DNA of 64,000 bases from Apostichopus japonicus (lineage: Eukaryota > Echinodermata > Holothuroidea > Aspidochirotida > Stichopodidae), in assembly GCF_037975245.1 (NCBI RefSeq), contig NC_092564.1:24796484-24860483 (forward strand), given 5' to 3'. This document shows, one piece after another, positions 10,301-59,054 of the stretch. The position numbers were made by a program, and so were the translations under genes. The notes beneath the pieces were generated by a model. The model saw only the letters and a list, made by a program, of their open reading frames with translations. It was not told where the DNA came from and did no database searches. Each line of letters begins with the position of its first letter. Within the stretch, counting starts at the first letter, position 1.

Positions 10301-13300
10301 CACTGCTTAGCTACAAGTTTACTGTCAGACTATAGTGTAGCCTGGAATTAATCAAATTAGCAACAGGGGTGGTGGCAGCATAATAGCTTCAATTTGTAAT
10401 TCACTATATTTGTTGATTTGTTGAAACTGCAGTGTTTAATGGCGTAAGAGACTGGTCAACATATTTTGCAATAAGATTATCTATCAAGTCATATTGTTAA
10501 CAGAAATAACAAATGATCAATGAGACAGTTTATCGTCTCAGTCTATATGTTACATAAGTTGCTTAACCAACAAAATATTCTGTTTAATATGAACTATGAT
10601 ATGATTGTATTAATTACAGGAAGTCTGGCCTCCAATGTACCAGCATGGTAAAGCCTTTGCAGCTGTTTTAATAACATCCTCCTCATACAAACATTTAATG
10701 GTCATCATAAAGATGGCAAATATGTTAGAATGTCAAATAATGACCGGTCGATCATGCTCAACAAATCAAGAATTCTATACTGCCACACTTCAAAGCATAT
10801 ACCTTCTTTGAGACATTTAATTGTCTAATTGAACACTTCTGAATTTCTTAGAAATGTTTCCATGGTCAAACCTTCCATGAAGACTCCTTTTTTGTCATTT
10901 TTAAGCAAAAGTTGCATCCTAATTTGCACAGCTAATTCTGGTGACGTTTCACCTCTTAACTTTGGCCATCATCTTAATCATGAATTAGACATTTCAGGAT
11001 ATATTACTGGTGGGAAATAATCCCACAATATTTGGAAGTTTAACATTTTGGGTGATTACAGAGGTCACATTTTAATCTAGTTACCTTCACACTGATTGTT
11101 GTCATTCTTCCTATAGCCAGGGAAGCAAACACAGTGATAGCCTGCAGCTGCATCTTCACAGAAGTCATTAGGACCCAAGCAGATCTGCTCTGCTGCTCCT
11201 GGTGCAGCACATTCATTGAATTCTGAATCATAAAGGTAATGAATATACTTTATGCTTGACAAAATGAAATGAGGTGATGATGATAGCATAAATGAATGTT
11301 GTAGGATACTTCTGAATACAAAAAACTTACTTTCAATTGTGGTCCACATTGTGGCAGCTTTGGCAATTTGTACAACCTTTGCCACAACTGTAAAATAACC
11401 ATTACAATTCAATATTGAAATGAAACCCTTTGTGATCTCAAAAAACCTAGTACTTAGTCAACCTGTTCTTTCAACACATTTACTTGATAATAACCTCTGA
11501 CCTCAAGTTAACATCCAATAGATTACCTGGTACTGCATTACACTTGTTTGGATCAGTACATACGATGATATAACTATCCTGAAATAAACCGCATCTAGTG
11601 TCAAAGCAGTTATCGTTATGAAAGAAAAATCAATATTATAAATCAGTTCCCAATTCACAGGTGTAGAAATAATATCTTTCGAAGGTCAACTTTCCTTTGC
11701 TACGTACAAAGAGAACACCATTATTTAGCTGAGTTCCTGGAACCAGTACAGAATAATTAACATGAAAAACCTATCACAAAGAAAATGTTGCTAAGGAAAA
11801 ATATTCTCAGATTTATTTTCTTCATTTTCTTGCCTGAATTGTTTCAAGTTTCTTTTGATTTCTTTTAATTTTTTACAGTTTACTCCTGTTATTTGTTCGT
11901 AAGGGAAGGTTCATTCTTACAACTTTAGCTCACCTGAAGTTTGAGTCCCTCCCATATCGAACTCTGTATTGTACATAACAATTGTTATTATACTTCCAGA
12001 TTTAATTTACATAAATGTGAACAGGAATTCTTTATACACTTGTCTAGTTTGATACCAACTATTAAAACTAATTGTTTTCAATACTTAGTTTAAGTTCAGA
12101 GTCTATTCCTATCTATGTGCTAGCCCTAGGTTCCTACCAACAGTAATAAAACCTTGCATTCTGTTTCATTTGATACAAACCAGAAATTCACCGGATAGAA
12201 CACTAAGGAAGGAGTTTTTACAAAGTTTGTAAAAACAGAAAATTGTTTTGCTGAATATTGTCTGCTTTGGCCAACCTATGTTGACGGATTCTTTGCCTTG
12301 AAGGGAAAAAGACACAAAACTTTTCATGTGTTTACTGCTTTCTCACAAAAGTTATCCATAGGTAGAAGAAAACACAAGGCAAGATAAAACTTGCTTGGAA
12401 TACTGTAATTACAACAGACTGTCATGTGACATCAAAGTTTGTTTCTACTAGAAGTAAAGGTTTAAGAAATGTAGGCATGTCTAACATGAAAAAGAAACCA
12501 AATATTTTTATCAGTAACATTTCCTCTCATAAAAACTTTACCATTTTTTGTTAGAGTATTCTTTGCTACCAACTTGGAAGCTGATAACATCTATTTTCAA
12601 GTGACCTACCAGTTCCTGGTACTGTTCCATCTAGCACAGCACATACAAAACTGTATGACTGAATACACTGGACTGATTCCCACTGACCGGCATCATTGAT
12701 AATTACACAATCCAGACGATCTTCGACCTCTCTGCTTATACGCACTGGATGGCCCTCTGCCCAATTGCTTTAAACAAGAATAGATGGCAATAGAAAAGAA
12801 AATGGTATTTACTTAGAAGAGAAGAGTAAAGAGAAAAAGGCAAAGCAATTCTCCAGTAAAAAAAACCCACACAAACAAACAATCAAATTAAACTTAAATT
12901 TCTTTAAGGGCATAAAAAGTGACTATCCACAGAAAATAACAGCACAAAACTAGGAGAGTACTGCACGGTTTTCATCTGGACTCAAAATTGAAATTCCATG
13001 ATTTCACCATGAATATTATTTAATACCTTCAAGCCCTAGCTATAACGGTCATGATGCTAAACAATCTTATTATATAGCTTTATCTGCATGAATAGAACAC
13101 AAAGGGTTTTCTCCTCCTTCCATTTGTCCCTCTTCTGCTTCTTCTCATTCTTCTTAGTTTTGTTGTTCATCCAGTTTATTCAGTCAAAGCACTCACTCAT
13201 ACCTCTCCTTGTACATTATTATAAATTTGTTGCTCAGAAGTCCAGGTTGAGTCCATGGTACTGTCAGTAAAATTGCAACCACAAACTACTTATTGCAAGT

Positions 13301-25186: not shown

Positions 25187-25841
25187 CAAGGGCGGCGGAA
25201 CCGGGGGGGCACAGGGGGCACGTGCCCCCCCACTTTTCCTCAGGTTAAAAATGTGCCCTTTTTCTACATAAAAATTGAGGTGTCTCAAGTTAGCAAGAGG
25301 CCAGGGAACCAGAATAAACACTCGGGAAGGCCTTTTCCGGCCATCTGAGGGGTTTGTAAAACCAAAAATTTTCTTCTACGCTCCGCGCCAACCGATGGTG
25401 GCGCTCCGCTCAGATAGTCGCGCATACAACTTTGCAAATCCTGGATACGCCCCTGACTTTTAATGAATTTATGTGGGTCAAACTCAAAACTATTTCGAAT
25501 GGAAAAAAATTGTTAAGATATTAGCAAGAAATAAACTCTAATTCGAAAGATTCCTACATTAGCAACTAGCATGATTTCACCTCATTTTGTCTCAAAAGAA
25601 AACTTTTTCCTTGTTTCCCAATTTGCACATTGGATATTGCAGTGCTAGTATGCATATTTACCTTGGAGGGGGGGGGGGGGCGTTGATGGAGTGATGTGTA
25701 TACGCAAATAAGATAATACAATAAGAGTTATGAAGGGTACTAAATATAAGGCTGCATCAGTCCAATCGAATTTCTGCAAAGTGCCTTTTGATGTCGGTGC
25801 CCCCCCCCCCCCCCAGATTAAAAGTGCTTCCGCCGCCCTTG
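25187..25841. mobile_element. Non-autonomous hAT-type element, 655 bp
   Basis: The ends CAAGGGCGGCGGAA and TTCCGCCGCCCTTG are perfect inverted repeats. They are flanked by the 8-bp duplication ATGGGGTG (25179-25186 and 25842-25849). A minus-orientation hairpin-core copy (about 25320-25455, ending GATACGCCCCTG) is nested inside. No transposase. Confidence 0.88.
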
Positions 25842-31888: not shown

Positions 31889-44726
<12,838 letters not shown>

Positions 44727-46257
44727 GAAGAAAGATGTGACTCTATCCTTATTTGTGTAATGTGCTTAAGTATATAATATGTGCATGTTCAGTGCAGTTT
44801 TCAAGCAATGCCACAAAGGCTGTTAGTTTTGTATGGTAGCCAGATCGGTTGCAAAGTTGTTGTCGGAAACAGGAATATGAATATGGCCCTTGCATTACAG
44901 TAAAGTGGATATTGATTTGATTTTAGTTTTGAAAAGCTTCTGTAGAGTGTAGGCCCAAGTAAGGTTAAATTAAGCAAATGAGTAGCAGACTAGATTTGGC
45001 AAAAATTTGAATAACAAATGATGGGTGAGGGGAGGATTGGGAGAGGGAAGATTGTTTTAAGGTTCCCATGGTATAAATGAAAGGTAATTTATCAATCAAT
45101 TTTGGCTGCATTTCTCTGATGATCAAATCAAACAGAACTAAACATAAATAGAAGAAATGCTTTGAAAAGCTTATGTAGATTGTAGGCACAAAATATGGAA
45201 GCACTTTTGTGGTTTCAGTAAATAGTAAGCCAAATTTTGGCAATTTGAATAACAAATGAAGGGTGAGGGGAGGATTGGGAGAGGGAAGATTATTTTACAT
45301 GGTATAAATGAAAGGTAATTTATCAATCAATTTTCGGCTGCGTTTCTGCGATGATCCAATTAAGAAAAAACTTAATAAGGAAAGGAGAAATGCTTTTTAA
45401 TTTCTCCTATTGCTTTCCTCAATCATGAAAGAATCCAATTTGTGAATGTTTTTTGTGTTTTTCTTTTTTGTAGGTTTGGTATTTCTTTCATGCATTCTTG
45501 CCAGGGTTCAACAATGTAATTAATCATCTATGCTGAAGCATTCTTTAAAAGGTGCTTGGGCCTGATAATATTTCATCAAAATAGGTAAATGTTACAAATT
45601 GAAAGAAAAAACAATAATTAAAAGAAATGGGAAAACGAAAAAACCTGCAAAAAGTAAGTTTTGTCATTTGAAATGGGAAAACCAGTTTTGATATAATTTG
45701 AGGCTCCTGATAGTTGGAGTCGAAATTTTGGCGGGAAGTCTCTTTCCCACAGTACTGTCTGCTCCTGCAGGGACATTCCTCTTTGAGTCGCTTCTGAGAG
45801 GTATAAGACAATGTTGAAAGGCAAATCAGCTAGCCTAACACATAAACTGTGTAAGTAATTGATGCCTTAGCTTAAACAATCACAGATGCCTCCTTCCCTT
45901 GCCAGAGGCTTACAACACTTCAAAACCATCTGCGATCCCATTAAATGTTTGAAAGTAGATTCCTCGGAGTAGACCAAGGATTTTATGATAAATGTTTAGT
46001 CAACAAAGTTGTGAAGGCTAACAATCCTACTTAAACCTCCTCAACACTTTTTGAAAGTGGATTTCTTGAGAAACAGAGGCCAAAACATTAATACAAAAGT
46101 TTTCGTCAACAACAAGCTTTGTTTCTTCCTTTTGTGTGGAGCTGATTCAATATCAAAGTATTTTTTATTAGGTTAGGTAAACTGTGCTTGTATATTTGTA
46201 TACCAACAATATTTAAATTGTGTATTGTATGCTTACTGCTTAATGTCTTAAAATAAA
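44727..46257 (+). other. DYNC1I: Probable dynein 3' UTR
   Basis: AT-rich sequence after the stop, ending at an AATAAA signal at 46252-46257. It contains a tandem duplication of about 230 bp (44930-45400), recognised by TGAGGGGAGGATTGGGAGAG in both copies. The true 3' end could lie at another signal. Confidence 0.5.
44930..45400. repeat. Tandem duplication, about 230-bp period
   Basis: GAAAAGCTTCTGTAGAGTGT / GAAAAGCTTATGTAGATTGT starts each copy, and GTATAAATGAAAGGTAATTT occurs in both. Probably transcribed in the dynein 3' UTR. Confidence 0.85.
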
Positions 46258-47159
46258 TTGGTGGTGATGAAAAGGGATGTTTTGATGATTTCCATCTTCC
46301 TGTTTTGTCATTCTTTGTCTTATTCTTTAGTGAACCTCTACAAAATTCAGACACAAAAAGAAAGATGTAATCAATGCCAAAAAGGCAAAACACAGACACA
46401 CACAAAACACAATAGAGAGAAAACAAACCACATACACAAAGGCTTTTGTGTATAATGCACATGTTTAACTGACTCAAGAATAAGAAACTGTATAACCTCG
46501 TGCCAAAAAAATATATATATATAAATTGCAAATAACAGTATTCTGTACATGTTCATAAATTGTACAGGTATAGAAATGTACAGAAACTCCTAAAGGTTAT
46601 TGTCACTTGTTGTGGACAAAAACGTTGCAAATATATGTACACAGGTTGGTCACATCCTGACAAAAAAACTTATTTTATCCGTGCCAAACACGGAAGTTTC
46701 TTTGAAGTAAGTGCCATGCTGACAGGAAAACTGGTTGTTGTCGGAGATGAAAACTTTGTCAGGATTGCCTTCAAGTTTTAACCTGCCAGTCTTTTTTAGA
46801 TTTTTTCCTGAATGCACTTTTTCTTGGGAGGATTGTGACCCTCCAAGATATCACCAGCCATGTTTAGGAAATCAGTAGGGTTGATAACTGGTCACCATGA
46901 GGAAACGAGAGATCATAAAATGGAGCATGTGCTTGACTGCCTGTCAAAAGAAAGCAGGTAAAGGAATTTTGAATAAATATGATAAAACATACGCCCCAAA
47001 AATATAACCTTTTACTTCTATTCCTCGCCCATCAATGCACCTGTTCTACCTCGTCTATTGGCTCTTTTGTCTCTGAGAAATCAGCTTTGGAATATATTTT
47101 TGAAAAAGGGAGCAGTTAAACTTTCCTCATATCTATGAATCTTACAGTGTACACTGTGT

Positions 47160-47800
47160 TTTTAGCTCATACCAGCATGCTGGTGTGAGCTATTGTTACA
47201 GTGCGGCGTCTATCACTCTATCCGTCAACAATTGGGAAAACCGCTCCCACTCGCACAGTGTTTGATGGAATTTCATGAAACTTGGACACAAGGACCATTG
47301 GGTATAGGGCCATCAGAGATGGTCCGAAATTTGGGGTCAAAGGTCACCTGTGGGCCGTAATGGGCCATTTTGTGGAAATACGCAAAATGCTTCTTCTCCT
47401 ACAGATTCCATGGTACAATGTTTAGGGTTTGTCACGATAGTACTACGGAAGTTTTACCTTCAGGGTGTTCATGAATTTGAGATCAAAGATCAACTAGGGG
47501 TCTTTTGTGGCCCGGGCCGGGGCCCAATATTTTCAAATTGCTCCTGTTCGTACAGTGTATGGCCAGTTATAATGAAACTTGGTCACAACGTTCCTCAGGA
47601 TGAGAGTTACGAGGGGTGTTCGGAAAATTGAGGTCAAATGTCATTTAGGGGGTCATCGGGGGTCATTCTTTGTAATATTTTCAAATATCTCAATCTCCTC
47701 AAGATTTTGATGGATCATATTCAAAGTTGAACTGATGATTGTTGGACTGTGTATGAATAAGGTGATGCCTAATAATTTTTGGTCAAAAGTTAATTAATTA
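47160..47800. repeat. Dispersed repeat with palindromic start
   Basis: Starts TTTTAGCTCATACCAGCATG then CTGGTGTGAGCTATTG (hairpin AGCTCATACCAGCA / TGCTGGTGTGAGCT). It continues with phrases like AAACTTGGACACAAGGACC and GGGGTCAAAGGTCACCTG. The AGCTCA..TGAGCTATTG opening is a known style of widespread marine-invertebrate repeats. No coding frame. Confidence 0.6.
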
Positions 47801-47991
47801 CAATTAATCCCCATTGTTTAAAAAAATCTGAGCCTTCACCTTTTGCCAAAGCTCCTTTAATTTGTCTCCCAGTCTCTGCAGTGTTTGTTTACATTTGTGG
47901 TTAAGCTCTGCAGAGGCTGTTAGTGGAATTAAAGCAGGACTGGGAGTTGTTATTAACTGTTGAACTGTAAGCGTGAGAGCCCAATAGCCAA

Positions 47992-50689
47992 TCAGCACTT
48001 GCCGATTCTTAGAAGTCTTTGAGCCTGAGGTATGTAGGCAGCCAGCCAAAATTTGGCAAGGAGTGCTTCAGGTCTGCTCAGGTAGAGGGGAGAAAGTCTA
48101 ATAGGGTAGGTCAGTGGTATTGTTTGAGAGAGTGGGTAAAATAGGATTTAAAGGGGGAAAATAGGAATTATAGCCAGTGGTGTGGCAAGGATTCTGCTAA
48201 CGAAGGGGGGGGGGGTTATCCCTCATGGGCCCAAAGTTGGTGGAATCTGAAAAATGGCCTGAAATTTGGTGGGCCACAAAGTTTTGTGGGCCCTACATTT
48301 TTAAGCTCGAAAAGGTATGAGCTTCTGCACCATTGGTGCTCTAGTTATATCATGCTGCTAACACATCAATGCTGAGTTTGGGCATATGAGAGTTACAGTG
48401 CAGATGCAAATAAGAGTCTAGCATAATTTGGGTATAGGAATTGGGGGGGAGGAGGGATTTCTTATTGTCATACTTTCATAAACTTGTAACAATAATTACC
48501 ATCTAAATGTACCTTAATACAATCAAAGTTTACTTTGTATCAATTTGTCAAACCTAATCAGATGAAAGAAGATGTTTTTAATGTTACTTATTTCACAAGA
48601 AGTTCACTTGAAAATTGCAATCGGCCCTAATTTCTTGGTTTAAGCAAAATAGCACCATTAAAATAATTTTCCTCATTGATTGTCTTATAGTCTGCACATA
48701 TGGAAATAACTTACCTTTTCCTTTGTGGTGGAGGATTTGGTGCTACTTGGACAGCTGGTTGGGTCACTATTACTTGTGTTGGCTGGGCAGGCTATGTAAA
48801 AGCAAAGATAAAAAAGAATGGAATAAGATCATTTCGTAAAGACCCTCAGTCAAACATTTTGAAATCAGCAATATATATATAATCAAATAAACTAAAACAA
48901 TAAAAAATAAAAAAATATAAATATAACCAATATTTGGCATACCAGATATTTTTCTTTAAAAAACAGAAACTGTGTATCATTTACATCAAAATCAGACACC
49001 CCCCTGGCTTACTAATTTAACCAAGTATATCCTTGGGGGTTTAACTCTTTATAGTAAAGCTTGTTGAATTAGACTTACAGGAGGTTCTTGTACCTTTAAT
49101 AAGAAAGATAAGAGAATATCATTATAAATAGGGAGAAAATAATGATAACAAAAATATAAAAATTGAATTGATTGTGTCTATATAAAAAAGGTTGAGATAT
49201 CTTGTTATGTCATGGAATATTAAAACTAAGTAATTGAATTAAACTCGTTTGCAGATACAGATGTCAAGGATGAAAAGAAAATTGGGAATTTTATGGAAGG
49301 GACAGATAGATGAATAAAAGATTTCATGAAGAAGGGCATGGTGCATCCTTAGGCATAACTAGACTATAAATTAGGTCTGTAATTAGCTCTAAACGCAAGG
49401 TTGTACTAATAAATTACTCATAAGCTCTTATTTTGAGGTGGAATATGAGGTGCAGGTCCATAACAGTGGTCTAATTCTTTCCTGGCTGAATGGTAAAATC
49501 CCTCGACTTTACCATCCCCCACCCCAATCTGAACCATCCCACCCCCCCCCCCACAAAGAAAACCCCATTTCCCTCAACTGACGATGGAAGGAGGGGGACA
49601 GTCCCCCTCCCTCACCCCCTTTATCTTTGCATACACCACTGCTACAAAGTCAAGTACTGACGATGAAAATGAAGAGTATTAGATCAAATGTAAATGAACT
49701 TACAAACTGTTGTGGTGGTGCAGACGGTTGAACCTGTGAATTTGTGGTTAACAAAAAATAGTTCTCATTATTTAGAAAATTACTTTTTCTGATTATAATG
49801 TACCAACTGTGAAAATTGGTTAACAACAAAATACAAAATTTGTGTTACTTTGAAAGTTAACTTTAATTTTAAACTGAAATAGGTGAAGAAGCTGCTCCAT
49901 GAAATGTATTGCAATTTACTAGAAGTATTAAGGGTATCGTTGACAATTAGCCGTATGGTTCATTTATTGGCTATGGTTCTATTACATTCTGGTTACATCT
50001 ACTTCAGTTGCCAATCTACACTATTTACATACTAATAATACTTCTGGGATGGGTGTGGGGGGATGGGGAGTAATAATTCATGTTCCCATGTATTTGTCGC
50101 TTTCTCAAGACAAAACTGATTCAATATACCTTGTTCACAATGCGTGTATAAACTTACCACGGTTGCTGAGTGGGGTGCTGGATAGGGTGCTGGATAGGGT
50201 GCTGGGTGTGCTTGTTGTACCTATATAACAAGGATGTAAGATAACTAAATTATTTTTAAAAGATTATAAAATTCCTCTAACAATGGTTGTATTTATTTTG
50301 TTCAAATGATCAACTATTTGTTGTCTGTCTGTTTGTTTTTTGTTTGTTTGCTTGGTTTTTGAGGTCGTATTTTTCCCCTTCTTTTTTAGACTCTTCTTTT
50401 ACATCATTATGTCACAATGAGTATCACATATGCATACTTACTACAGTGGCCTGATGTGGTTGACCTTGGTGGACCTAAGGAAAAATAAAAAGGATATCAA
50501 GACAGTGAAAAAATGTTAAAGACATATATCATGATTTATATATGATTTATATATATGATTTATATATATGATTTATATATAAATATATATGATTTATATA
50601 TATATAGATATGATTTATATATATATAGATATATATATATACATATATGTATATATATATATGTATATATATGTATATATATATAAATT

Positions 50690-50732
<43 letters not shown>

Positions 50733-53700
50733 GTATATTAATATATATATTAATATATATATATATATATATATATGATTCCACCTCGGAATTTTTTGTT
50801 GTTGAAGCGGTGCTAGATTTTAATGCCATCTAAAAGGAATCTTACCACTGTGGTTGCTGGTGCTGGTGGTGGTGGAGGTTGTTGGATCTGCATATAAAGA
50901 GAGAAAGAATCACTTTGCTAGGAGCACAATTTGAAAAAGGGCTCCAAGATTGTTAAAATACCTTGCAGAGAGAAAACCAAAATAACAACTTGGATACGAT
51001 AATATTGTTTAGATAGATGTGTCTAAGTATTTGAAATATTTGTAAAGAACACGTATGAGCTTTATAAAGATTCTTTGAGTGACTTAAAATAACCCCTGTG
51101 ACTTGCGAGAGGAGTAAACTACACAATTGTAAAACATATGTATGCAAGATGAGGAACAGGCGCGAATGTGACACTTATATCACTTTAAGCTTTCATTCGG
51201 TATCGGTAATGATGTTATTAACCTGTATTCAATTGATACACGCTAGACAATGGAGTGAGGTTGAGTAGGGATGAATGGGGGTGCAGTAGGGGTGTATGAC
51301 GATTCACAGTATAGGTGCAGTAGGGGTGTATGACAATTCACTTGGACCTATATATCCTACTCACCATCGTGACCTGTCCTGGTATGGCTCCAGGGGCTTG
51401 TTGATGGACCTGTAGTAAAGGGAAATTTAACATTTCGGAATATTTTTGTGCAGTTTTCGTAACAGAAAGAAGAAAAAGGGACAAACAATAAAAGTAAATC
51501 CGGCAAGGGACCGGATTACCACCCCATACCACCTATTACGTAATGTAATGTTACGTAATGAATGTAATGTAACGTTAAAGTTAACTGCACTTTTGTCAAT
51601 GATAACATATACCTGCATGCAGTTTGTCAGTAGTACAATTGAGTCCTCCCCCTCCCCCGCCCTAGAGGTCACGCTGCCACACCAACCTTTCGATTTCTGT
51701 TTATGTCCCAGTATATGGTGATAGATCGATTGTCGTGAATGAATGATGTCGCTAAGATACCAAAATGGAAAAAATACCGTTTATACTAGAACTGATTGGG
51801 TTGTTAAGTTTGTTAAGTTTGCCCGAAGAGAGTGCCTTTTCCGGCTATAATTAAACCCGTGTTCGTCAGTGGCGTCGTGCCTATTGCCCCCCCCCCCCCC
51901 CAAATTTTGTCAAAGGTGTCATAAAAGGTTGTCATAATTTAAGAAAAAAAGTGTTTTCGAAATCGAAAAGAACACTAAATAGTCAATTGCTCTTTGATGG
52001 TCATTGCGGATTTTCCACACACCTCAAAGACGACATATCGGGATTAGTAATGCCATTGCCTTTGAATATGTTTGTCCTAAGCTCGCGTTTGATATTTGAT
52101 GTCAAATGTACATAGCGCCACCAACTTGAGGTAAGAATATCTCCCAAAATAAAAAATTGCCGGAAATTTTTATCAATTTTTGGGAAGTGCCGTTTCCTGC
52201 AATCTGAGGGGTCTGCCAGACGAAAAATTTTCTTGTACGCTGCGCGCCAACCTGTGGTGGCGGTCCGCTTAAATAGTCATCACCCATGCTCACGCCCCCC
52301 CCCCCCAATTTATTTTCGCACGACGCCCCTGGTGTTCGTCTGTAGTCATCCATTCTCAGATTACAAGGACGACTGTTTGATTGTGATACTTACAACAACA
52401 TGTTGCGGAGGAGGAGGTTGAGGTGCTGGATTTTGGTGCTGGATCTGAGAAATAAAGAAAGGGGGGGGGGGGGGAGGGAAGAGACTCATTTACTTATGAA
52501 TACAAGAAAAAGTGCTTCATTATTAAGTTCCTAAATACTAATCCATCTATATTTCTGAATGTCAATCTGAATTATTGAATATTAATTAAAATTTAAGTAG
52601 CTTTCTTTCTTAACTTAAGCACTTTTGAAATCGCGAAATGTGCTTCCAATGTAGGCTTCATGTTTCTTTTCTCTAAGTCCTGCCATGGTCATAAAATTTA
52701 TATATTTATGTTTTAATTGACTTTTTATACTCTCTTTCTAAGTTTTCGAAGGTTCTCTCACAGACACTAAAAGATTGTAACAATTTATTGAAAGCTCAAA
52801 AGTAAGTTCCTCAAAAATAAAATTTATTACACTTCGATAAATTCAGACGAAACGCCTTAGTGTAGAAATATTGATATAAGAATTAATATAACTTACGATC
52901 ATGTGACCCTGTGGTTGTTGTGGATTTATCTAAGAAAAGAAACACACTCATATTCATAAAGATTATCATTCATTTTTTATTTTTTAATGACTCATTATTT
53001 TTCGTTCATTTATATTAAAGAGTAAAATGGTAAATCAAGACAAATGGGATGAATAGATAGATGAATAAAGTAAATCCGTTTTCATGACACTCAGAATAGT
53101 TGTTGTAATGCTGCTATAGAAAGACATTTTCCCTGTGTTAGGATACCTTTAGGCTATTATCTGTATTTATTCTTCTCAACATCAGGGAATAGTTTAATGG
53201 TCAGGAGGTAAATTGTGAAGAAAATTTAGCAAGTTTTTGACCTGTATCAATGATGGAGGCTTAATGCAGATGGCCTTTAAAGGGTTTTAACATTTGTTCG
53301 TGTTATGAATGTTCTTTTCCCTTTCAAAGCAGCTATGATGTAAAGTAACAGACTGAAAGAAAGGCAAAAGTTGTTACCATGGTTACTGTCTGTTGCGGTA
53401 TCGTCTGCTGGGGTTGTTGTTGTTGAATCTGGTAATATAAAAATATAGGAGGTTATGGCTTATATATATAGGAAGGCCTGTATTATAACGATTATGAATT
53501 AGTGTGTTAATGAATTGTGAAAATATAATTACGGTGATTAATATGAGCATTTCTTAAACCATATAGTTAATGTGACTATTAACGTTTGAACACTTTCCAA
53601 TATCAAAACATAAACTGATTGTCGATATTATTTATCAAAGTTTACACATAACTCTCTATTTACTTATATATAAAAGCAATGTGGCAAAATGTAGGTCTCT

Positions 53701-56700
53701 AACCGTACGAAACTTACCACAATGTGTTGTTGGTTGCCCGGTGCACCTGTGTGAATTATCTGTGGTAAAGTTTGAAATAGACACAGTCATTGATTAAAAT
53801 TGGAAAACTACATTGCTGGTTAGATGTACAACTACAACGCAAACTCTCTTCTCCACCCCCCCCCCTCCCCGGCACTCCTATTCCCTAAATAGGCCTACGT
53901 GTGATTGAATGCGTACATAAAATATATTGTTATATATTTAAACTTTATATACATATAGTTTTACTTGGATAGCCGTCGCTAATCTTCTCCAAGGCTCTCT
54001 CTGAAAAGCAAAATCAAGGTAATGACAAATTGACATATTATGACTATACCTTATATACCAAAAACATGCGCGTACATAAAATATTTTGTTATATATTTAA
54101 ACTTTGTAAACACATAGTTTTACTTGGATAGACGTCGCTAATATTCTCCAAGAAACTCTCTCTCATAAAACAAAAGCAAGGTAGTGACAAATTATTGACA
54201 TGTTATGCCTATCCTATATACAAACAAAGTTGGGTGAAAGTTGCTAGTTCTGGTATAACTATCAATATATATGTCTGATTTGGCAGTGGATTTTTGAACT
54301 TAGGCTGTTATAACAGAACGAGAGCGTTGAGTTCTGTACATTTATTATATTCTCTTTGCCCGCGCACCTCCTCTCGGGAAGCAAATTCTGTGTAGGATAG
54401 TCAAAAAAAATTTCGGGAAACTATGCTTGTTAAAAAAACGTTAGAAATGAATTGTCACAGTTTGTACTTACATTATGCTGACCGCCAACTTGATACTGTG
54501 CATTGAATAATCAAATGAATAAACCAGTTAAGGGTATGTGATGAGCAAATTGATGAAAATTGCACTCTTAATTTGATTTTTCATTTAATAATTAGTTTGA
54601 ATATATATATTAATTTTTTTAATTTTCAATAAGATACTGTACCCTAACGTGATATAAATGACTAATGACAAAGTAAGGAGGCCCGGTTTTACTGAGGGCG
54701 ATAATTTTTACATGAGCTACATTCATACTATATGCTGAATCGTCTACAGTTATCATTAGTTGTGCATATATATACCTAACTCAGCGGTATACTGCTGGTC
54801 ACGTGGTCACAACATAATTGCAAATAATTAAACTGTATCGAACTCCTTCCATTATTTGCACCCAACGAATGCTTCTACCTACCGCCATTAATATAACTTA
54901 CTAGCGGCGATTTATAAACACGTCAGTGTTTATTTTCAAGTAGGTCCTGCATGTCCATCGGAAGGTTGGCAACGTAACTTATAGAGCGAAGGATCACACT
55001 ACATATATGTAAACCCTGTGGTAAATATATTGTTCGGTGGTTGCATATATATATAGCTATAGCTAGCTACAGGGGCGTATCCAGGGGGGCGCAACAGGCG
55101 CGCGCCCCCCCTATTGGCCGTCACCAAACAAAAAAAAAAGTTTAGCAAAAAAAAAAAAAAAAAATTGATGACGACCTTTATGTGAAATGTCGGTGATCGC
55201 TCAACCCCCCCCTCCCTCCCGTATGCCTTATTTTTTGTTTGCCAAAAAAAGGTTCTGGCGAAGTTCGGCGGCATAATAGTTTTAGAAACATAGACGGTAA
55301 TTGTGTTTGTATTATCACTATAAACACTAAATGACATGCCAGCCATACTAAATTGTGCATTTTGTGTCCATATTTACTGGAAATGTTGCTTATTATTAAG
55401 GTCGAAAAATGGATCACATATGGCCATGGGCGGCGATCCTGGGTGGAGGGGGGATATATCCCCCCATGAAAATGGTTGGAGGGGATGTAATGCACCATAT
55501 CCCCCCCCCCCACCAAATGCCATGGATAAGAATATTTTCATGCCTACATTTATGCATCTTCGTTAATGTACGGCTCTTTTTTAGCTTCATTTCTCGCCTA
55601 CCATAAACGCAGTGCGATCTTTTCAAATAAAGCGTCTTTATAAAGCAAAAATAGTTGACTGTTGGCTTCATTGGCCCTATAACAACAAAATGTATTATTG
55701 CGCCCACGATATTGATATAGTACATATATGCACCCTCATAGTATTCATATAGGCCCTATAGTAGGCCTACACACGTACATGTTCCCTCGAACAGCTGAGA
55801 ATCTCATGTAACCAGGGTAATGCTTAATACACGTTTCACCTGGATGCCCTAGCAATCGGTACCTAGGAATGTAACTATGTGTAATTGTGTATTGCATGTG
55901 TATAGGCCTATAATAGCCTGCATGAGGCCATTTTCTTCATCGAATAATATAACAGAGCTCTCGAACATTCTAACGTTGCGCCTGAAACAAGATTGACAGG
56001 GGCAATTTTCCCAAAATAACACCCGAAATTAAAAAAAAAGTACTTTGGATCCTGATTATGAGATATTTCGGACATGACATCCCTATTTTAAAGTTGGGTA
56101 TATGCCGCTTGGAAACCTCGGGAAGTGCCGTTCCGGCCATCTAGAGGGTTTGTTAATCCCAAAATTTTCTTGTACGCTTCGCGCCAATTCATGGTGGCGC
56201 TACGCTTAGATAGTCAACAAGGTCATATTCCCCCCCCCCCCCCACTCGGAAGTACGGATCGCCGCCCATGCATATGACACCATTTTGCATTTCAGCCCTT
56301 CTTTGAAAGCAAAAATTGTACACCCCTCCCCTTAGACCCATCCCCCAGGACGGCGATCATTCATGCCTGGCGCCCCCCCTATTGGAAAATCCTGGATACG
56401 CCCCTGTAGCTACTTGTGGTAACACAGGATTCCGTGTTTCAACGATAAGGATTATAATAGCCAACTGATTCGTTTGTTACATTGCAGGTTTTTCTCCCAA
56501 ATTGTTGACATGTAATAGCACACGCTCAAGAATGAATTCATGTACCATACGCAATTGTATAGTTTAAATGAAGTAGTACCACGTTGCATTTAGGCCGCCC
56601 TACCACCCACAAAGAAAAATTAATTAAAGGAATGGGCGCCCACTACCCCAGACGGACATCGGCAAGCATTTTTGTCATGGCACCTCCTCCCCTCTTCGCC

Positions 56701-56996
56701 GAATACAAACTCAGGGGCCGGACATGGCACCCAGGCCTCCTCCCCGACACATCGTTACCGGCATGCAACAAATAAAATAAAATAATACAATACAATACAA
56801 CACGTACAACACGTTAGCTGATATATACATATACTGATCATACATACAAAGACAAACAGGTGGGCGAGTGACAGTTTTTTTGACATTACACAAACATTTT
56901 TCAACAAATACGCAATGAAGCAGAATTAAACAGCAAAGAAATGTGATCATAGGCCCTATAAGTCTATGGAATAAAATGTTTAATACTTACCGCCAT
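47992..56996 (-). CDS. Pro/Gln-rich protein made of serial microexons (unrecognised)
   Basis: Fourteen candidate coding exons: 56991-56996, 54472-54495, 53718-53759, 53378-53428, 52897-52929, 52394-52444, 51365-51409, 50846-50887, 50442-50474, 50158-50220, 49704-49733, 49079-49093, 48715-48791, 47992-48073. They total 594 bp, 197 residues. Every intron from exon 1 to exon 12 is phase 0. Internal exons are 15 to 63 bp and most begin with an I or V codon then Q, H or N, and end in V or M before GTAAG. The peptides are rich in P, Q, H, A, with no signal peptide, cysteine pattern or known domain. The last exon (phase 2 join, [14 protein letters not shown], stop TGA at 47994-47992) is the least certain. 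The ATG (56996) is followed after two codons by a GTAAGT donor. Function unknown; exon skipping would never shift the frame. It lies tail-to-tail with dynein and head-to-head with STK11IP. Confidence 0.72.
48170..48360. mobile_element. Transposon-like fragment
   Basis: CAGTGGTGTGGCAAGGATTC followed by a G homopolymer resembles the left ends of the hAT-type elements. No right end or duplication found. Confidence 0.4.
49465..49645. mobile_element. Transposon-like fragment in an intron of the microexon gene
   Basis: CAGTGGTCTAATTC at the left (also at about 15801) and ACACCACTG at the right look like short inverted ends. The interior is C-rich and flanking duplications do not match. Confidence 0.45.
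50158..53759 (-). CDS. Microexon gene, central block of eight duplicated-looking exons
   Basis: In transcript order the exon peptides start [56 protein letters not shown] and VQQAHPAP; they end HIV, VTM, HMI, HVV, VTM, TTV, ATV, ATV. The shared frame, shared edges and similar composition suggest serial duplication of one ancestral exon. All eight have AG acceptors and GT donors, six of them GTAAG. The [17 protein letters not shown] exon has an inner YPAP repeat. Confidence 0.78.
50520..50780. repeat. AT microsatellite
   Basis: (TA)n with ATGATTTATATATA variants, about 260 bp, self-complementary. Intronic. Confidence 0.95.
51867..52331. mobile_element. Non-autonomous hAT-type element, 465 bp
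   Basis: CAGTGGCGTCGTGCC and CGCACGACGCCCCTG are near-perfect inverted ends. They are flanked by the perfect 8-bp duplication GTGTTCGT (51859-51866 and 52332-52339). Inside lies a minus-orientation hairpin-core copy (about 52125-52280, TTTTCTTGTACGCTGCGCGC). Located between two microexons. Confidence 0.88.
53912..54230. repeat. Tandem duplication, 160-bp period
   Basis: GTACATAAAATAT..TTGTTATATATTTAAACTTT and AGTTTTACTTGGATAG occur twice, at 53912 and 54072. Confidence 0.85.
53965..54000 (-). other. Candidate extra 12-codon microexon
   Basis: A TTGCTTTTCAG acceptor, 12 phase-0 codons ([12 protein letters not shown]) and a GTAAAA donor lie between microexons 2 and 3. The composition (W, R) differs from its neighbours. 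The block belongs to a 160-bp tandem duplication whose other copy has an in-frame stop. Confidence 0.3.
55070..56406. mobile_element. Transposon with inverted ends and a nested element, 1.34 kb
   Basis: CAGGGGCGTATCCAGG and CCTGGATACGCCCCTG are perfect inverted ends, flanked by TAGCTA on both sides (55064-55069 and 56407-56412). The flanks are 6 bp rather than 8, so either part of the duplication has decayed or the family differs. It contains the nested element 55425-56270. Confidence 0.8.
55425..56270. mobile_element. Nested hAT-type element, 846 bp
   Basis: CATGGGCGGCGATCC and GGATCGCCGCCCATG form nearly ideal inverted ends, flanked by CATATGGC and CATATGAC (7 of 8 alike). It carries a minus-orientation hairpin-core copy at about 56118-56220. 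Confidence 0.7.
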
Positions 56997-56999
56997 TTT

Positions 57000-59054
57000 G
57001 ATATATAATAGTTATGTTGATAAGACGTTATATTAAGTCTAGATGTCCAATCCGTTTTACAGCGCTAACCTGAAGTCTCGTCAAATCACCACTTATCGAT
57101 TTAAGTTTGTTCATTGGGGCCGCAGAGAGGCAGTAACCGTTTATTAAGTTTACATGACAACAATAATCTGTTCCCAGATCCCTTGAAATCTCTTCATTCA
57201 AGGGACGTCCTGAGAAATCGATTTTCTTTTCAACGAATGGAATGACGTCAGAGAACCCTGAATCCCTTCTAAAGGTTCGTGGGAGGGAAGATGAGTAAAA
57301 ACCTAGGTCCTAATGTAGCTACCGGGCCGAAAACTGACCGAAAGGAAAAATTGCAAAATTCATAAATGATTAATTGTAAAATTCAAAATGAAACACATTG
57401 CTTGGTAATAACACGATACTTTTCATTTACTATATACTAAGGGAACCTCTTATTTTAGATTGTTAAATATCACTCTGATAACAAAATAATTCAGGATCGC
57501 ATTTGCTGAAACTTGAGAAAGAGGGTGGGAATGAAATAGCAAAAAACACAATTTGTGTAAATGCCATATATTTGATTAATTTCTATGGTAAATACATATA
57601 CATGGTACCCTGTACTGCAAGGAGGCTCCACTGATACAGGGAAACTTAACGATTTTTAAGGAGATATTAACATGATGCTCGTTTTTTGAATAAAAATATA
57701 CAACATAGGTCTCCGGCAAATATCCAACCAATGTCAAGCAAGTTAAAATACATGCAGTTTGTGAAAGTGGAATATGAATACCTAACATGCTGTACGAACA
57801 GAGTTGGCCGCTCGTTTTGTGATTGTACAAAGTGCATTGACCCAAATGTTTGTAAACACCACAAATACACACAGAGAGAGAGGGAGAGCAGAGAGCTCGT
57901 CATGTGATCTTTACATCATAACAATTGCATACATGTGTGTTCGGTTCAAGCACAGTTTATACGTAGGTACACTGTACAGTGGATCGGGCACAACAAATCC
58001 GTGCTGAAGGCTAGAGACAAACTCGACTTGTATCACTGTTTGGTAGCTTCGGGGAGCAGCAATAGCAGTCAGAGACTTACTTAAATATTAGTGGCAGGTA
58101 GTGGTTACCCTTAGTTCTACAGTAGACTTACAGACAGTTTTGTCAAAACTGCTGTGCGTAACGTTAATCATTTAGGGCTAGGCTAGGCCTAAGTAGCCTA
58201 ATGAAAACAACATATTGCAATTGGTCTACAATACATGTATAGTAAAGACTTCATACGCACCTTCGTAATTGACGCATATTGAAATACTACTAGCAACGAT
58301 ACAGCAGGCAACCTAAACTTTTTGCAGCGAAGCAGAGTTACATATTTCATGAGTTTGAATCCATTTCAGGTAGCCTATGTGCTCATCAAATTGTGTTTTT
58401 TTGAGCATTTAACACCCTCCCCCAGTTTTGCATATATCTTTGGCATTTGCCGATCTTACTCCCTAACAATAACCAACATTACCTCAACATGGTACCACTA
58501 CTCTCTGGGACCTGAGCTTAGAGGCTCAGAGGATACGGTAGCAAACTGCATCCAGAGTCAATGGATGTATACCTACAAAGTTACAGTTAGCTAATCAACG
58601 AATGTGTCAATTTCGGGGTTTGAAAGAACTTGACAAAGTAGCCATTTTGTGGTCAACTACTGCTCAACTGTACATTGCATAGGCACAGAACAATAAATAT
58701 TTTGAGATCATTACATTTCTGAGGAACAACACATGAAAAACGCATACAGTTGAGTGATTTGGATTTTGTTAAATGTTAAATATGAGTACAGTATAAGTAG
58801 CATGCAATTTAAATATGTGTTGCCTAGCTACAGTAAGTATGCCTAACTTGATCTGCATAGCCATATAAGAATATATTTGCTAAGTCTAATAATAATGATG
58901 CATTTACGTCTGGTTATTGAAACCTCACAAACAAAACTTTACAGATGCAATTGACATCACGTTCACTAGGCTGGCTTTCGGTATATTGTTCTGTCATAAA
59001 GTGAATGTCTTTGTATGTTTATAGTAATTTCTTTGTATGTTGCTTATATTTCAG
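57000..59054. promoter_or_regulatory. Head-to-head spacer between the microexon gene and STK11IP
   Basis: About 2.1 kb between the minus-strand ATG (56996) and the plus-strand STK11IP ATG (59135). It should contain the 5' UTR exons and promoters of both. No TATA box, CpG island or conserved site could be named. Short frames at 57576-57907 and 58322-58594 look random. Confidence 0.4.

Follow-up and report, generated by a model that had tools for sequence, protein, structure and literature searches.

The minus strand of the 64-kb window (the whole stretch of DNA analyzed here) carries a predicted gene in which 11 consecutive internal exons of 15 to 63 nt (5 to 21 codons) run from 54495 to 49079, with phase 0 on both sides of each (Table 1). 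We refer to these exons as tiles and to the gene, which was predicted from splice-compatible borders and reading frame in the window sequence, as the tile gene. The run of short phase-0 exons and their frame neutrality were both claimed in the original prediction and are confirmed here; the term microexon, which was applied to them, is loose, 3 of the 11 tiles being at most 30 nt and 10 of the 11 at most 51 nt long. All 12 introns between exon 1 and exon 13 are GT-AG introns of phase 0 (221 to 2495 nt), and the last intron, after exon 13, is in phase 2, so that 12 of the 13 introns of the model are in phase 0. On a simple consensus scale, scores range from 0.5 to 9.5 for the tile acceptors and from 0.9 to 6.1 for the tile donors. 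Exon 1 as predicted is the least certain exon; the model of the homolog BSL78_12805, described below, begins in intron 2 instead.

Table 1. Predicted coding exons and polyadenylation signal of the tile gene (positions within the window)
Feature	Position	Strand	Length (nt)	Basis and remarks
Exon 1, coding part M-A	56991..56996	-		Exon end GCG, donor gtaagt, phase 0; window splice sites alone
Tile 1 (exon 2), YQVGGQHN	54472..54495	-	24	Phase 0-0; window splice sites alone; no counterpart in BSL78_12805
Tile 2	53718..53759	-	42	Splice sites and tblastn
Tile 3	53378..53428	-	51	Splice sites and tblastn; weakest donor among tiles (gtaaca)
Tile 4	52897..52929	-	33	Splice sites and tblastn
Tile 5	52394..52444	-	51	Splice sites and tblastn
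Tile 6	51365..51409	-	45	Splice sites and tblastn
Tile 7	50846..50887	-	42	Splice sites and tblastn
Tile 8	50442..50474	-	33	Splice sites and protein alignment; missing from BSL78_12805 model
Tile 9	50158..50220	-	63	Splice sites and tblastn
Tile 10	49704..49733	-	30	Splice sites and tblastn
Tile 11, VQEPP	49079..49093	-	15	Splice sites and protein alignment (VQQPP in BSL78_12805); no separate tblastn row at this length
Exon 13, 25 residues and two bases	48715..48791	-	77	Splice sites and tblastn; end phase 2
Terminal coding exon: completes R, then QSSTCSIL, stop	46913..46940	-		Match to BSL78_12805 C-terminus
AATAAA	46164..46169	-		The one hit in a search for four poly(A)-signal hexamers over 900 nt from the terminal exon onward

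Several introns contain repeats of their own. Intron 1 includes a stretch of ~1.3 kb (55070-56406) between perfect 16-bp inverted ends (CAGGGGCGTATCCAGG), with TAGCTA flanking both outer sides; this stretch appears DNA transposon-like, and a single further copy of one of its ends was found at 25440-25455. The intron between tiles 1 and 2 contains a 92-nt direct repeat (53911-54002 and 54070-54161, 90% identical), and an AT-rich, largely palindromic repeat (50530-50784) makes up most of the 371-nt intron between tiles 7 and 8 and adjoins tile 8.

The 3' end of the gene had to be revised. The terminal exon placed at 47992 in the original prediction is unsupported and was dropped; the C-terminus of BSL78_12805 matches instead a minus-strand exon ~1.05 kb 3' of that position, where, at 46940-46913, the acceptor tgctttcttttgacag is followed by G CAG TCA AGC ACA TGC TCC ATT TTA TGA. 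The predicted length of the protein changes accordingly from 197 to 179 residues, 143 of which are encoded by tiles 1 to 11. Three minus-strand open reading frames (47804-48067, 46106-46552, and 46650-46850) were considered as the C-terminus and rejected, none of them reaching a Pfam cut-off (best match, PMAIP1, E = 0.023, 14.9 bits against a cut-off of 27). CD225, LITAF, and MS4A are membrane-domain families; a downstream domain of this type was likewise sought, and none was seen in the list of open reading frames, inspected by eye, or in the Pfam searches of these three 3' frames. The second of these frames is a stop-free stretch of 148 codons without a Pfam match (46106-46552, minus strand) that lies 3' of the tile-gene stop, in the likely 3' untranslated region. 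On the plus strand, a gene for a cytoplasmic dynein 1 intermediate chain, whose C-terminal exons lie at 39048-44128, is convergent with the tile gene; one open reading frame of this neighbor matches PDB chains of DYNC1I2 (E = 2e-22). Elsewhere in the window, a minus-strand open reading frame at 11077-11454 weakly resembles an EGF-like family (cEGF, E = 0.0011), its 19.3 bits falling short of the 26.6 cut-off.

A protein-database search with the predicted protein yielded a sole match, the hypothetical protein BSL78_12805 of Apostichopus japonicus (Holothuroidea, Stichopodidae; 219 aa, E = 3.3e-55), and queries with the last 52 and the first 54 residues again retrieved only this protein. Because the search relies on 5-residue words in common and on comparable length, and its first run scored only the 7,981 candidates with the most words in common, diverged relatives may have escaped it. 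The local alignment covers 94% of the query with 60% identity including an insert and 92% identity over aligned columns. In tblastn, every tile from 2 to 10 except tile 8 aligns in order on the minus strand of the window, as do exon 13 and the nine C-terminal residues, and the last eight residues (QSSTCSIL) are identical in the two proteins. With hand-paired exons, 149 of 156 exon residues agree, against 19 of 37 in a deep intron stretch; the 10 intron residues adjoining the donor all agree (10/10). Sharing the tiles, their order, and the C-terminal end, BSL78_12805 is very likely an ortholog of the tile gene product. The two differ in that the BSL78_12805 model starts inside intron 2 (its CLFQTLPQ is the window intron sequence before tile 2), translates part of the intron that follows tile 5, gains three residues behind tile 11, and lacks tile 8, with a clean junction at the exact borders where ATTV runs into VQQA. 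A whole tile is thus a unit by which the two sequences differ, be it in the genome or only in the gene model; because this model also translates intron sequence, the tile 8 gap may be an annotation slip. No mention of BSL78_12805 was found in the open-licence literature, and searches of that literature on echinoderm or sea cucumber microexons, on A. japonicus CAAX motifs and prenylation, and on CAAX motifs together with microexons showed no paper on such a gene among those listed. The tile gene illustrates how a gene can escape annotation: the sole model found translates introns and lacks or misses one tile. Within the protein searches made here, it appears to be found only in sea cucumbers.

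The density of candidate mini-exons at the locus far exceeds chance. We defined a mini-exon by an acceptor score of at least -2, a donor score of at least 0, phase 0, a length of 15 to 66 nt, no stop codon, and a Pro/Gln/His content of at least 40%. Over the 8.5 kb from 48601 to 57100, the minus strand yielded 10 candidates under this rule that do not overlap, nine of them tiles and one a fragment of exon 13, and the plus strand yielded none; 60 first-order Markov copies of the same segment gave a mean of 0.12 candidates and a maximum of 1. Two stricter settings returned 8 and 7 minus-strand candidates and none on the plus strand, with Markov means of 0.02 and 0.08, respectively, and both strands of the remainder of the 64-kb window contained one candidate under the original rule. 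Tiles 1 and 2 contain less than 40% Pro/Gln/His and for this reason are missing from the 10 candidates. No further Pro/Gln/His-rich tiles were found in the introns at the loosest threshold, the exon 13 fragment excepted. That all tiles are in phase 0 is by itself a weaker argument than it appears because the neighboring dynein gene is likewise mostly phase 0 (5 of 6 introns placed by eye, the remaining one being in phase 2); the five internal exons placed in that gene measure 114, 134, 145, 141, and 126 nt, compared to 15-63 nt for the tiles.

The tiles also follow a rule at their edges. Ten of the 11 start with I or V, compared to a mean of 2.1 when letters were shuffled within tiles (reached in none of 200,000 shuffles), and 8 of the 11 end with V, M, or I (shuffle mean 2.1; fraction 0.00015 of 200,000). 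The common edges noted in the original prediction hold in this form, and the stricter pattern of I or V followed by Q or H is found in 8 of the 11. The tiles contain 27 I, V, and M residues, of which 18 occupy a tile edge and 25 are no more than two residues away from one. Exons usually have A as their penultimate base; 9 of the 11 tiles have T there, so splice consensus does not account for the end rule, although it may aid the start rule. In most tiles, the exon edges appear to match the edges of a repeat in the predicted protein. Each of the 36 ordered joins that tiles 2-10 allow brings two I, V, M, or F residues together, so that, by arithmetic on the sequence, a hypothetical skipping event within tiles 2 to 10 would keep both the reading frame and a hydrophobic pair at the new join.

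The predicted protein of 179 residues contains 38 P, 39 Q, and 11 H, and the 143 tile residues include a single K/R/D/E residue. It ends in RKRQSSTCSIL, with the only cysteine of the protein at the CAAX position of CSIL; a C-terminal CSIL followed by a stop, preceded by three basic residues, is present in both the window and BSL78_12805. CAAX motifs in which X is L suit geranylgeranyl transferase I, and prenylation of the CSIL end is predicted. This end had been overlooked, and it points to a putative intracellular, lipid-anchored product. We detected no strongly hydrophobic stretch in the protein (top 19-residue mean hydropathy 0.51). For windows starting at residues 1-25, the top 11-residue mean is -0.07, in agreement with the earlier statement that no signal peptide is seen, as judged by hydropathy and with exon 1 uncertain. 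The family had not been recognized in the original prediction, and a Pfam search of the predicted protein returned no family up to E = 1 and a PDB search no relative up to E = 0.1; Rfam gave no match at gathering scores. There is one PPPPP run; a search of the protein for SH3, WW, PPLP, and EVH1 ligand motifs was negative and thus points to no known binding partner. The tail is predicted to be disordered; the mean pLDDT of 43.7 from AlphaFold2, run on BSL78_12805 as a single, partly wrong sequence, is consistent with disorder and constitutes weak evidence for it.

We propose, with a probability of about 45%, that the tile gene encodes a prenyl-anchored disordered protein in which the number of tiles sets the length of the tail and the number of hydrophobic "stickers," the tiles being possibly spliced alternatively. 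A prenyl group on CSIL would anchor the product to a membrane, and the disordered, almost uncharged Pro/Gln/His tail would extend from this anchor. Most of the phase-0 mini-exons would each correspond to one repeat, hydrophobic at both ends, and splicing would place hydrophobic residues side by side at the joins of tiles 2 to 10 (V-V, M-I, V-I, I-I, and F-V). With such a pair at each join, tile number would govern both the reach of the tail and its sticker count, and any tile of 2-10 could drop out with the frame and a sticker at the new join retained. Two further steps are inferred: alternative splicing may act on the tiles, and the length of the tail, together with its number of stickers, could tune self-association or binding at a membrane. 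The wide excess over all controls, the co-linear BSL78_12805, the kept CAAX end, and the one clean, tile-sized difference between the models would support this proposal. A more specific idea, which we regard as less likely than not, is that the product is a splice-programmable membrane polymer, intracellular and prenyl-anchored, with stickers coded at exon edges and with splicing dialing the valence and reach of a disordered, membrane-bound coat tile by tile.

The main rival reading is a credible one, though we would not give it even odds: the tiles may be fossils of old exon duplication, spliced constitutively into one form, a prenylated P/Q-rich protein of fixed length. Near-identical tiles stand in the same order in BSL78_12805, and the strong conservation of tile length and sequence relative to this protein also fits a fixed constitutive form. 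Recent tile duplication was rejected: the 11 direct-repeat families identified in 46500-57200, with a tool that overlooks copies less than ~65% alike, all lie outside the tiles, so any duplication would be old. The absence of exactly one tile from BSL78_12805 and the weak donor at tile 3 speak against a single constitutive form, neither being decisive.

It is considerably less probable that the protein is a nuclear or cytosolic Gln/Pro-rich regulator, with RKR forming all or part of a nuclear signal, a tail that serves for activation or interaction, and a CAAX-like end left unused. The Gln/Pro-rich composition and the RKR run would suit such a role, but the sole cysteine lies at the CAAX position, the final eight residues are identical in BSL78_12805, and Pfam reveals no DNA-binding or other domain. 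Very improbable, in our view, is a secreted protein akin to the P/Q-rich SCPP proteins or the products of schistosome micro-exon genes (MEGs), which small phase-0 exons and a P/Q-rich composition might suggest, given that hydropathy shows no signal-peptide-like stretch at the N-terminus; exon 1 is, however, the least certain exon, and a further 5' exon may have been missed. That the exons are a product of chance, are non-coding, or belong to a decayed gene, as a low-complexity protein with no known domain could suggest, is extremely improbable in view of the enrichment over every control run and the co-linear conservation with BSL78_12805, the deep intron stretch being less conserved.

Returning to the prenyl-anchored protein with a tile-coded tail, we compared the gene with known systems. 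Ras and Rho GTPases are CAAX-box proteins with a polybasic stretch, and the tile protein resembles them in that its C-terminal CSIL is preceded by RKR; it differs from them in having no GTPase or other domain detectable with Pfam. The likeness to schistosome MEGs, suggested in the original prediction, extends to the small symmetric exons: according to PMC4350168, very small symmetric exons make up most of the coding region of MEGs and their skipping preserves the frame, and in the tile gene the 11 phase-0 exons encode most of the protein. All MEG products have a signal peptide and several of their mature regions are fast-evolving (PMC4350168), whereas the tile protein has no signal-peptide-like stretch by hydropathy, ends in a CAAX motif, and has tile sequences strongly conserved relative to BSL78_12805. 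MEGs are, moreover, restricted to platyhelminths, whereas the only homolog of the tile gene found is from a sea cucumber. MEGs also produce isoforms by alternative splicing, which for the tile gene is a hypothesis. The tile gene is not a schistosome MEG.

In vertebrates, according to PMC7807025, SCPP introns are all in phase 0 and one human cluster encodes P/Q-rich proteins. The tile gene shares the P/Q-rich product and phase-0 introns with these genes and differs in its last intron of phase 2, its CAAX end, and the lack of a secretion signal in the hydropathy profile. Titin offers an analogy of working only: its PEVK region is a proline-rich extensible segment encoded by exons 112-225, and titin size is altered by alternative splicing (PMC11040099). 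The analogy implies no sequence relation, and PEVK is charge-rich, unlike the nearly uncharged tiles. The small-symmetric-exon genes compared here encode secreted or sarcomeric proteins; if our reading is true, the tile gene would be a cytosolic, lipid-anchored version of such genes, its exon borders falling together with the hydrophobic stickers of the protein, and, since splicing could provide the length series, a natural system for studying how repeat number governs disordered proteins at membranes.
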